DNA from: a virus
IMG/VR virus record: IMGVR_UViG_3300034283_001363
Coordinates: 1-48,467 of that record
Length of the DNA: 48,467 bases
Strand: one strand, 5' to 3'
Shown: in pieces, positions 7,642 through 10,336 of the stretch
How positions within the stretch are numbered: the first letter of the stretch is position 1
How the letters are laid out: every line of letters begins with the position of its first letter
Position numbers and translations under genes: made by a program
The notes under the pieces: generated by a model
The model's database searches: none
The model's input: only the letters and a program-made list of their open reading frames with translations
What the model was told of the DNA's origin: nothing

Positions 7642-7739
7642 AGTGAAGTCGCATATCTCTTAATCGGTTTAACCCCAGCTTCCCGACATTACCACTTGCA
7701 AGCTGTTCCTACTTGCCAATCCTCTTGTGGCTGATTATG

Positions 7740-7817
7740 TGGGACCGACAGGACTCGAACCTGCGACACTCTGAACATTGGACTGAACAGATGCTCTACC
7801 AACTGAGCTATAGTCCC
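7740..7817 (-). tRNA. tRNA-like gene with enlarged anticodon arm (CCA/Trp possible)
   Basis: On the minus strand the acceptor GGGACTA pairs with CGGTCCC (one GU and one mismatch). The D arm GCTC-AGTTGGTA-GAGC is canonical, and the T arm GCAGG-TTCGAGT-CCTGT is canonical. The anticodon arm is 22 nt instead of 17: TCTG pairs with CAGA, followed by a TT/TT internal loop, CA/TG and a small loop containing T-CCA-A. If the extended stem forms, the anticodon would be CCA. CCA is not encoded at the 3' end (ACA). A direct repeat TGTTCAG flanks the loop. Confidence 0.6.
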
Positions 7818-7891
7818 AAATGCTCGTCTTTCCGAGCCGTCATCCTAGGTTTAGAGGACGCACTTTTAAAAAAGTGTCCTGTGTCTAATTA

Positions 7892-7969
7892 TGGTGTGTA
7901 AATCGGATTTGAACCGATGACCTCCGGGTTATTAATCCGACGCTCTAACCTGTCTGAGCTATTCCACAC
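7892..7969 (-). tRNA. tRNA gene, anticodon loop reads AAT (Ile?) - atypical
   Basis: Minus strand: an acceptor of 7-8 bp (GTGTGGAA with TTACACAC, one mismatch), D arm GCTC-AGACAGGTTA-GAGC, anticodon stem TCGGA/CCCGG (one wobble and one A-C mismatch) with loop TTAATAA, 5-nt variable loop, and T arm ATCGG-TTCAAAT-CCGAT. Position 33 is T, so the anticodon is AAT. A34 is rare in bacterial tRNAs outside tRNA-Arg. It lies downstream of the integrase on the same strand. Confidence 0.65.
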
Positions 7970-8081: not shown

Positions 8082-9407
8082 TTAAAAATCTTTAACAACA
8101 ATAGAATTTACATAGTTAATTACCTTTCTATTGGCTATATCTATTCTAGTCCAGTCCTTTTTAATGTACATATCTGCCACCTTTCTACCTAAATCTACGT
8201 GGTTCAAACATAAGTCTATATCATCCTTAGATATGTCGCATTTGTTTCTGGCTATTGTAGCCCACGTGTGGCGTGCGTAATAGGTTGATAGTGGTATGTC
8301 GGAATTTCCGAACAACCACTTTGCCACTACCTTAAGCCCTTTATTGACATTGGAGCTGAAAATATGTGAAGTAGTGTACCTGGTGTGGAAATCAAATACT
8401 CTTTGGCCTGTTTTATCCCTGTACTTCTCAAATAGTGGCATTGCTTCCGGTTCAACCTTTATGCTGATAAATGCTTTGTCCTGTCTGCGCCCCTTTGTTT
8501 TCTTTCGGTTGTATTCAACTCGTACCATATTCCCGACATCAGGAAAATGGTCTGCTTCGTATAAGTCCGCCAAATTCATTCCAACTAGATAAAACGATAA
8601 AAGGAACACATCACGAGAAAAAATCGCTCTGTGCGCCTGAAATGAATCCACAGGGCAATTTATCAGCCTGTATAGCTGTTCATCTGTAATAGTTCGCTTC
8701 GTATTGTCAGGACGTGGCTTGATTTTGTACTTTCGGAATGGGTAGTGGTATATTTTGATTTCGTCTTTGTCCTCATCGTTATACTCTAACATGGCCGCAT
8801 TGAACAATACCCTTACATCAGTCATGTATTCAAATATGCTAACTTCTGACAGCGGTTTGTGTTTTACGGTTATAAGTTTGCCAAATTGGTTTTTACGCTT
8901 GATTATTCGAGTGGTTCGTAGGTAATTGTCAAACTGCACAAGAAACTTCGATGTTATTTCATTGATTGATATTCGCTCCCTACCATTGCAAAAGTCAATC
9001 AGTGCGTTGATGGTCCTATTAAGGTTTGATGCTGATGTGGTTCGATCCTGCTGTTTGAGTAATTCAATATGCTTCCTTGAAAATTCAATGAAATTAATTG
9101 TGCTGTCTGTTCCTGACTTCGTTTCATTGACAAAGTATTGAGCCAGTTCCTTTGCTGAGTACATGTCAATCCGATAACCTAGTTTCTTTGACTTTATATC
9201 CTCATACTTTTCAATCCTGCGGTTTAGCTCGTTGATAATGTAAATATCCTTAAGGGTGAAACTCTTTTTAATGATCTGTTTATCTGTGACGTAGTATTCT
9301 GTCTTAATATACGCACACTTCCTTTTCCACGTCACACGGATAGATACTGGATATTTATTATCAGTGCGCTTCTGATGCTCGAAAATACATATCTTAAAAG
9401 TAGCCAT
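8082..9407 (-). CDS. int: Tyrosine site-specific integrase
   Basis: The 441-residue protein has an N-terminal Arm DNA-binding domain (~1-90), a SAM-like core-binding domain (~100-215) and a catalytic domain (~235-435). Catalytic residues: RH at 379-380 in YYARHTWAT, His403 in LNHVDLG, and the nucleophile Tyr414 in DMYIKKD. The box-I arginine position is Asn278 (GMNLADL), as in other Bacteroidetes integrases; IntDOT is known to lack this arginine. It begins 1 bp after the GIY-YIG gene stop, so the two are translationally coupled. It would recombine attP, for which the tRNA-like sequence at 10193-10237 is a candidate. Confidence 0.9.
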   Translation of the reverse strand: MATFKICIFEHQKRTDNKYPVSIRVTWKRKCAYIKTEYYVTDKQIIKKSFTLKDIYIINELNRRIEKYEDIKSKKLGYRIDMYSAKELAQYFVNETKSGTDSTINFIEFSRKHIELLKQQDRTTSASNLNRTINALIDFCNGRERISINEITSKFLVQFDNYLRTTRIIKRKNQFGKLITVKHKPLSEVSIFEYMTDVRVLFNAAMLEYNDEDKDEIKIYHYPFRKYKIKPRPDNTKRTITDEQLYRLINCPVDSFQAHRAIFSRDVFLLSFYLVGMNLADLYEADHFPDVGNMVRVEYNRKKTKGRRQDKAFISIKVEPEAMPLFEKYRDKTGQRVFDFHTRYTTSHIFSSNVNKGLKVVAKWLFGNSDIPLSTYYARHTWATIARNKCDISKDDIDLCLNHVDLGRKVADMYIKKDWTRIDIANRKVINYVNSIVVKDF

Positions 9408-10034
9408 TTAAAATTTCAATTCCAATGTTTTCTTTTTAACGTATTCAACAGTTTTGTCAGAAGAAATATACTTTACACAGTCTTGTATTTTTTTTATTAC
9501 CGGTTTCAGTTCAGCCAAAACATCTTCATCTATTATCCAGCTTCCTTTTATTTGCTCCTGATAAACGTAGAAGTTAGTAGGTACATAAAAAGACTGCCTT
9601 TTATAAGTGACACGTATTTTTACATTTATTGTTCCATCTCTTTTCGTCTGGTGCTTTAAAGCCAAAGCCCTTAATGAAACTACACCCCTTGCAGATTGTT
9701 TTGTTTTAGAGTAATCTGAACCATTAATTCGAGCCACATTATATTTTGGCTTTAATGCTTTTATTAGCGTTGTTTCAACCTCTGTTAGTGATTCTTTTGG
9801 AACAAGATTATATCTAACCTTGTTAAACTGTTTTGTGGCTTCAAGAACATGGTCTAATATACGCCTTGTTATATTATAAGCCTGCCCAATATACACTAAT
9901 TCATCATTATCATACAAAAAATAAATACCTGAATTCATTTCAAATGAATCCAAACGCAGTTCTTTAGAACCTGCAAGTTGTTCTTTAGCCATGTTGTAAA
10001 TATGTTTATTGATTTTCATGGCAAAGATACTCAT
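9408..10034 (-). CDS. GIY-YIG nuclease fused to an integrase-type Arm DNA-binding domain
   Basis: The 208-residue protein has a GIY-YIG domain at ~34-103, with GIY at 36-38, YIG at 48-50, Arg57 or Arg58, and a catalytic-type Glu87 in TEVETTLIKALKPKYN. Residues ~122-195 (LALKHQTKRDGTINVKIRV, then QSFYVPTNFYV and a helix) match the layout of Arm domains at the N-terminus of Bacteroidetes integrases. The adjacent integrase has its own Arm domain. The first residues could be trimmed to Met6 or Met15. Its stop abuts the integrase start, which suggests the two are made in ratio and recognise related arm sites. Its function in recombination is not established. Confidence 0.75.
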   Translation of the reverse strand: MSIFAMKINKHIYNMAKEQLAGSKELRLDSFEMNSGIYFLYDNDELVYIGQAYNITRRILDHVLEATKQFNKVRYNLVPKESLTEVETTLIKALKPKYNVARINGSDYSKTKQSARGVVSLRALALKHQTKRDGTINVKIRVTYKRQSFYVPTNFYVYQEQIKGSWIIDEDVLAELKPVIKKIQDCVKYISSDKTVEYVKKKTLELKF

Positions 10035-10150
10035 AATTTGTAAAACATGTACAACATTTTAGTGAAAACTTCGTACAACTTGGTGCAACAAACGTATCTA
10101 CTTTTGATATTATTTGCAAATTTATTTTTTTGTTATTTTTTTTATGCCAC

Positions 10151-10193
10151 AAAAAAGCCTGTAAGTATCAATAACTTACAGGCCTTATTTTTT
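10151..10193. terminator. Bidirectional terminator beside the putative attP
   Basis: GCCTGTAAGT (10157-10166) pairs perfectly with ACTTACAGGC (10174-10183). A run of A precedes it and a run of T follows it, so it can terminate on both strands. On the minus strand it follows directly after the tRNA-like segment, as a terminator after a host tRNA would. Confidence 0.75.
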
Positions 10194-10237
10194 GTAGCGA
10201 GAGGGAGGAATGATCTCCCGACCTCATGATTATGAAT
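10193..10237 (-). other. tRNA 3'-half remnant, putative attP core
   Basis: On the minus strand the sequence reads as the 3' half of a tRNA with CAT anticodon: TTCATAA loop, TCATG 3' stem, GAGGTC variable region, a T stem GGGAG/CTCCC (10203-10219) and an acceptor strand TCTCGCT then ACA. There is no matching 5' half. Many tyrosine integrases use tRNA 3' ends as attB. The T loop (ATCATTC) is not canonical, which lowers confidence. The integrase block lies 160 bp away. Confidence 0.55.
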
Positions 10238-10274: not shown

Positions 10275-10336
10275 CGTTTGGGAATTGCGATTAAAATGTT
10301 CGTAAAACTATTTATAAACATTTGCGGTTTTGCATC

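Follow-up and report, generated by a model that had tools for sequence, protein, structure and literature searches.

The DNA analysed here, referred to as the window, is a stretch of 48,467 nucleotides from a virus, a phage of Bacteroidota (IMG/VR record IMGVR_UViG_3300034283_001363). On its minus strand, an open reading frame (ORF) of 208 codons (positions 9408-10034), encoding 208 aa, is adjoined at its 3' side by the gene of a 441-aa tyrosine recombinase, the integrase (8082-9407). These coordinates agree with an earlier note on this DNA, which had described the first product as a GIY-YIG nuclease and the next gene as an integrase with its own Arm domain. Indeed, alignment with the nuclease places an Arm domain at integrase residues 1-72 (9192-9407, minus strand). 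The note had put the genes 1 bp apart, but the spacing is 0 bp, and the integrase (int) start codon comes directly after the nuclease stop codon. In the related locus L003, the nuclease stop likewise touches or overlaps the int ATG, and in L033 it is one base off.

The automatic start of the annotated nuclease ORF (10014-10034) precedes the -7 box of its probable promoter, TATCTTTG (10022-10029, minus strand), which is of the TAnnTTTG type of Bacteroidota -7 elements. The same box is located 5' of the nuclease gene in L033 and L009, and TATATTTG is found at that place in L003. Because the box falls inside the longer ORF and the proteins of the relatives start at the position that corresponds to M15, translation probably begins at 9992. 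The coding sequence would then span 9408-9992 (minus strand) and yield a product of 194 aa, and the annotated N-terminus would be about 14 residues too long.

The catalytic domain covers residues 35-99 (9738-9932, minus strand) and carries the marks of GIY-YIG nucleases, namely GIY (36-38), YIG (48-50), R58, H62, E87 and N99. GIY/GVY, YIG, Arg58, His62, Glu87 and Asn99 are invariant across four aligned relatives, so that the catalytic residues named in the note (GIY, YIG and Glu87) were correct and can be extended by R58, H62 and N99. The Pfam family GIY-YIG (PF01541) scored 23.3 bits, above its curated cut-off of 22.6. Together with the conserved Tyr/Tyr/Arg/Glu/Asn set, this score assigns the predicted protein to the GIY-YIG superfamily. 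Pfam detected only GIY-YIG and Arm-DNA-bind_5 in the protein and no NUMOD-type C-terminal domain, and TIGR01453 reached 31.6 bits, below its cut-off of 56.05. We therefore rejected membership in the orthodox, I-TevI-type (NUMOD) group. In PADLOC and PHROGs, noteworthy matches were confined to the GIY-YIG part, those in PADLOC being partial. Between the window and L003, nuclease identity by codon position was 0.61/0.73/0.40, which shows that the protein has been kept under purifying selection.

The second half of the nuclease was analyzed by sequence comparison and fold prediction. Residues 118-208 (9411-9683, minus strand) form a predicted integrase-type Arm DNA-binding domain with a linker helix, as the note had proposed. 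Direct BLAST of residues 118-185 against residues 1-70 of the adjacent integrase gave 34% identity (E 6e-8), and tblastn of the Arm half against the same integrase gave 38% identity (E 3e-7). With such E values, the likeness is evidently not due to chance. The Pfam family Arm-DNA-bind_5 (PF17293) matched residues 127-162 with 18.2-21.0 bits, just under the cut-off of 22.6; the adjacent integrase, a member of this family by context, scores merely 9.2. A fold model built from nuclease-Arm rows alone, and hence independent of integrase rows in its Arm half, showed residues 120-204 as strand-strand-strand-helix-helix with a pLDDT of about 80, while its GIY half was poor. A second model, with extra GIY-YIG and integrase Arm rows from the retrieved loci, reached a mean pLDDT of 87, its Arm half being informed by the integrase rows. 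The GIY half of this model matched UvrC (Z 10.2, 2.5 A, 78 residues), T4 EndoII (Z 9.5, 2.2 A, 84 residues) and I-TevI (Z 8.5, 1.9 A, 70 residues).

A structure search among viral models matched the nuclease to entries annotated 'Integrase' with probabilities of 1.00 and 0.96. In the PDB, the second model's Arm half had no clear match and the whole protein of the first, low-confidence model returned nothing useful; a sequence search for solved structures of the nuclease Arm or the integrase found none. Sequence and a confident fold model back both domains, and the protein is thus predicted to be a GIY-YIG nuclease fused to a complete integrase-type Arm. Like a homing endonuclease, it would combine a nuclease and a predicted sequence-specific DNA-binding domain in one chain.

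Upstream of the nuclease gene lies a phage attachment site (attP) whose core corresponds to the 3' half of a tRNA-Met (10192-10234, minus strand). The core is near-identical in L019 and L021 and in the intact tRNA-Met that lies 5' of int in L027, and the same core is located 5' of int in L003, L019, L021 and L026. Since phage genes flank both sides in the window, its attP appears to be unintegrated. The core is surrounded by tandem repeats related to GTTTTACGAA, spaced about 10-12 bp. TTACGAA-like sites are enriched in the attP arms on one strand, where we counted 17 (6.2 +/- 2.4 expected), a number reached in 0 of 300 shuffles, and we read these repeats as putative integrase arm-type sites. 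All of the following features lie on the minus strand. The repeats GTTGTACATG and GTTTTACAAAT (10036-10055) travel with the nuclease gene, whereas GTTGCACCAAG and GTTGTACGAAG of the P' arm (10069-10089) are also present in relatives that lack it, and a further arm-type-like site, GTTTTACGAAC, is located across the core in the P arm (10298-10308). A probable ancestral int promoter region (TTTGCAAAT...ATACGTTTG; 10089-10120) is conserved in L019 and L021, neither of which has the nuclease gene, and a terminator-like hairpin (10151-10189) lies between the core and the nuclease gene. In a sister integrase clade (L058, L060, L062-L064 and L040), a different tandem repeat, TGTGGTTCAAA, precedes int; the sequence of arm-type sites therefore appears to track the integrase clade. 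Just downstream of int (7739-7968, minus strand), we also observed two tRNA-like genes inside the phage genome, one a tRNA-Ile (anticodon aat) and the other with an ambiguous anticodon.

The nuclease gene is thus located between the attP arm repeats and the int start codon. Since the protein has an Arm-type domain and its gene adjoins attP and int, targeting to attP arm DNA, as the note had suggested, is a natural inference. The note had gone on to suggest that the nuclease helps in integrating, in choosing excision or in marking attB; this found no support, as L019, L021, L026 and L027 combine related integrases and the same tRNA-Met-type attP with the absence of the gene, and carriers are rare. 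We searched IMG/VR, GTDB contigs, phage and plasmid records and whole-genome Bacteroidota samples. Full-length relatives of the nuclease were found only in L003, in L033 (identical to L008, one Breznakibacter xylanolyticus prophage) and in L009, a metagenomic phage. The co-occurrence survey that the note had called for yielded a single carrier genome in three partly overlapping Bacteroidota samples of 395, 393 and 395 genomes, so the pair is rare. An Arm-only survey of 247 genomes revealed no further nuclease-Arm fusion.

The carriers fall into three lineages (the window; L003; L033/L008 with L009), all with the gene at the same spot between the attP arms and the int ATG. Most sampled relatives of the window integrase lack the gene. 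In L019, L021 and L026, the int start (ATGGCAAC...) comes directly after the arm repeats. The window retains the promoter-like region and repeats of such an empty site, followed by an extra unit that extends up to the int start codon. In a tree of 27 full-length integrases, those of the carriers did not form one clade (AU p=0.0035 against a single clade), and the carrier label required three changes in every bootstrap tree. The window integrase pairs with that of the empty locus L026 (91/88), and the L003 integrase with that of the empty locus L019 (89/87). By these data, the gene is an intergenic insertion, absent in close relatives and phylogenetically discordant, as is typical of homing endonuclease genes.

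The Arm domains of the nucleases form one clade (support 100/99), which lies outside the clade of the adjacent integrases. Because this clade is unified while the carrier integrases are scattered, the gene goes back to one fusion and was later gained or lost by several integrase lineages. The tree shows a single origin of the fusion, which fits an Arm taken up once from a tyrosine recombinase. Against the profile of the adjacent integrases' clade, nuclease Arms scored 20-35 bits, compared to 105-169 bits for local integrases left out of that profile. Judged by these low own-clade scores, the nuclease Arm is an old separate lineage and not a recent copy of the neighbour's Arm. The 'domain duplication between neighbouring genes' put forward in the note is therefore unsupported, and a recent local duplication was rejected on the basis of both the clade support and the profile scores. 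AU tests against a local origin were weak (p 0.04-0.14), and for this reason the exclusion applies to recent duplication alone, these tests being too weak against an older one. A first AU test (p 0.018) was discounted, as it had forced the four carrier integrases into one group, a grouping that is wrong in itself. With the profile of another integrase clade, nuclease Arms reached 41-63 bits, but this profile is more general and also scores local integrases with 45-78 bits, so that the preference is not specific. The nuclease Arm is hence no closer to the local integrase clade than to a different one, and its target may be other than the attP of the window. As its residues mix features of two integrase clades, they do not tell which DNA it reads.

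The mobility of the gene is best seen in L033 and L009, which, among the parts compared, can be aligned over one 2.1-kb stretch only. Within it, a tract of 673 nt is 99.7% identical (2 mismatches). It begins at the first arm repeat, extends into int as far as codon 5 and contains arm repeats, promoter and nuclease gene, and the flanks diverge at once on both sides. At fourfold sites, at most 2 of 63 differ in the nuclease gene, compared to 58 of 129 in int (p about 1e-10). Neither int nor the attP core was carried along. The contrast between the tract and the adjoining integrases indicates a recent transfer of the nuclease gene as a unit with its repeats and promoter, and argues for a mobile, homing-like cassette. 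Such bounded transfer between genomes is a property of homing endonuclease genes, observed here in one phage pair only. When the two int genes (L033:8590-9894 and L009:2428-3714) were compared, a second patch of high identity was seen at codons about 260-320, while many silent sites elsewhere in int differ. This patch suggests that ordinary small-scale recombination within int also acts at this locus.

Considering that the protein has the layout of a GIY-YIG homing endonuclease, that its gene sits beside DNA to which an Arm could bind, and that the cassette moved as a bounded unit, we lean, with modest confidence, towards a free-standing, homing-like endonuclease cassette aimed at attP arm DNA through a captured integrase Arm, a reading that draws on three independent carrier lineages only. 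The GIY-YIG domain would do the cutting, and the C-terminal Arm, acquired in a single event from a tyrosine recombinase, the aiming. In related temperate phages without the cassette, the protein would probably bind the arm-type repeats of attP and cut close to them, probably near the repeat/int junction. Repair off the carrier would then copy the cassette, with arm repeats, promoter and gene, to a position just before the int start codon. With the nuclease stop abutting the int ATG, int expression would be kept. The insertion places some 0.6 kb between the repeats and the int start, which may protect the carrier. Arm-site binding, cleavage, the cut site, self-protection, cutting as the driver of transfer and any benefit are what we infer rather than observe. 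More tentatively, and with considerable doubt on our part, Arm domains could be interchangeable aiming parts of nucleases that guard or invade attachment sites. A cassette that cuts attP arms would then spread among temperate phages at the integrase locus and also keep rivals that lack it from integrating, a homing element and an integration-exclusion system in one. If the homing-like reading is right, the presence of a mobile gene at attP/int would be explained, and homing would be linked with marker exclusion and with the competition of temperate phages in Bacteroidota. It would also suggest a way to aim a GIY-YIG nuclease, as the arm-binding domain of an integrase would direct it to the DNA that decides phage integration. 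The arm repeats and the cassette-less relatives offer defined substrates for a simple test.

The main rival to homing is a weapon against competitors, for which the Odn nuclease of phage ICP1 is the model. Odn joins a T5orf172 (GIY-YIG-family) nuclease to a replication-initiation domain, RepA_N, taken from the very satellite under attack (PMC10448857). By analogy, the borrowed integrase Arm would direct cutting to the attP arms of a rival and block its integration or excision, and the gene would spread as useful cargo. The position of the nuclease Arm outside the adjacent integrase's clade, with its higher scores against the other clade's profile, agrees with a foreign target, but the generality of that profile weakens the point. 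Further, PADLOC returned nothing beyond its partial GIY-YIG matches, and the gene constantly occupies one spot before int and moves with arm repeats, which fits self-copying better than free cargo. We consider such a weapon unlikely. Cutting of attP arms is expected under both the homing and the weapon reading; what separates them is whose attP is cut and whether cutting copies the gene.

Less probable still is an accessory factor of the integrase, which would nick or occupy arm sites to influence integration versus excision, or repress the nuclease-int operon from the promoter repeats. The two genes abut in all carriers, the arm-like repeats overlap the promoter region, and I-TevI also serves as a repressor (PMC10448857). 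However, the closest integrases have the same kind of attP without the gene, which makes an accessory role in integration less likely; moreover, the gene is rare, moves independently of int and has conserved catalytic residues that a pure repressor would not need. Autorepression as such can be reconciled with homing. We give the lowest chance, a slim one, to passive hitch-hiking, in which phage mosaicism exchanges attP and int jointly and the nuclease acts elsewhere. The second high-identity patch in int would fit general recombination at the locus, but the transferred tract ends at most 5 codons into int and at the first arm repeat, leaving int and the attP core behind.

As a homing-like element, the cassette resembles known systems in several respects. 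Free-standing GIY-YIG nucleases are encoded by the T4 seg genes, for which intronless homing, co-conversion and marker exclusion have been described (PMC2988022), and nuclease genes are found at exchange boundaries (PMC10448857). With I-TevI and the T4 Seg proteins (SegF in intronless homing) it shares a GIY-YIG domain with invariant catalytic residues and a separate DNA-binding domain, in I-TevI likewise joined by a linker, as well as an intergenic insertion that closely adjoins the following gene, a patchy distribution and transfer of a bounded tract. It differs in that those proteins use NUMOD/HTH or Zn-finger modules, whereas the nuclease predicted here uses an integrase Arm, and in its locus, attP/int in temperate phages of Bacteroidota. 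A small beta-sheet DNA-binding domain also aims the HNH-AP2 homing endonucleases (Magnani 2004, via PMC10448857); these have an HNH nuclease and an AP2 domain that is not of the Arm-DNA-bind_5 type, and they are not reported at an integrase locus. Like Odn, the nuclease is fused to a DNA-binding domain from a key protein of a mobile element; in Odn this is a replication initiator (origin), here an integrase Arm (presumably for attP arms). Its C-terminal half is homologous to the N-terminal Arm of Bacteroidota Arm-DNA-bind_5 integrases, but it carries the Arm C-terminally and lacks a core-binding or recombinase catalytic domain. A 2006 survey of GIY-YIG proteins distinguished orthodox members with NUMOD domains from unorthodox ones with other or unknown domains, and a term search of it found no mention of integrases (PMC1564403). 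Literature searches, in which subscription papers were little covered, returned nothing that describes GIY-YIG joined to an Arm domain. We found no prior description of this architecture and rate it as a variant of the free-standing GIY-YIG homing endonuclease.

Two other arrangements of these domains were observed. At L010:5719-6474 (same contig as L041:5001-5753), a separate fusion in reverse order carries an integrase/AP2-like domain at its N-terminus (Arm-DNA-bind_4, 19.2 bits, slightly below the cut-off) and GIY-YIG after it, with no relative of the window integrase's family nearby. AP2-type domains also occur at the N-terminus of integrases. Fusion of integrase-type domains to GIY-YIG nucleases may have happened repeatedly. 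Directly upstream of another integrase, L138:1312-1722 (same region as L127:1698-2108) encodes a 137-aa Arm protein with neither a nuclease nor a recombinase domain; it looks like a truncated tandem copy of the integrase and could serve as a decoy or in regulation.
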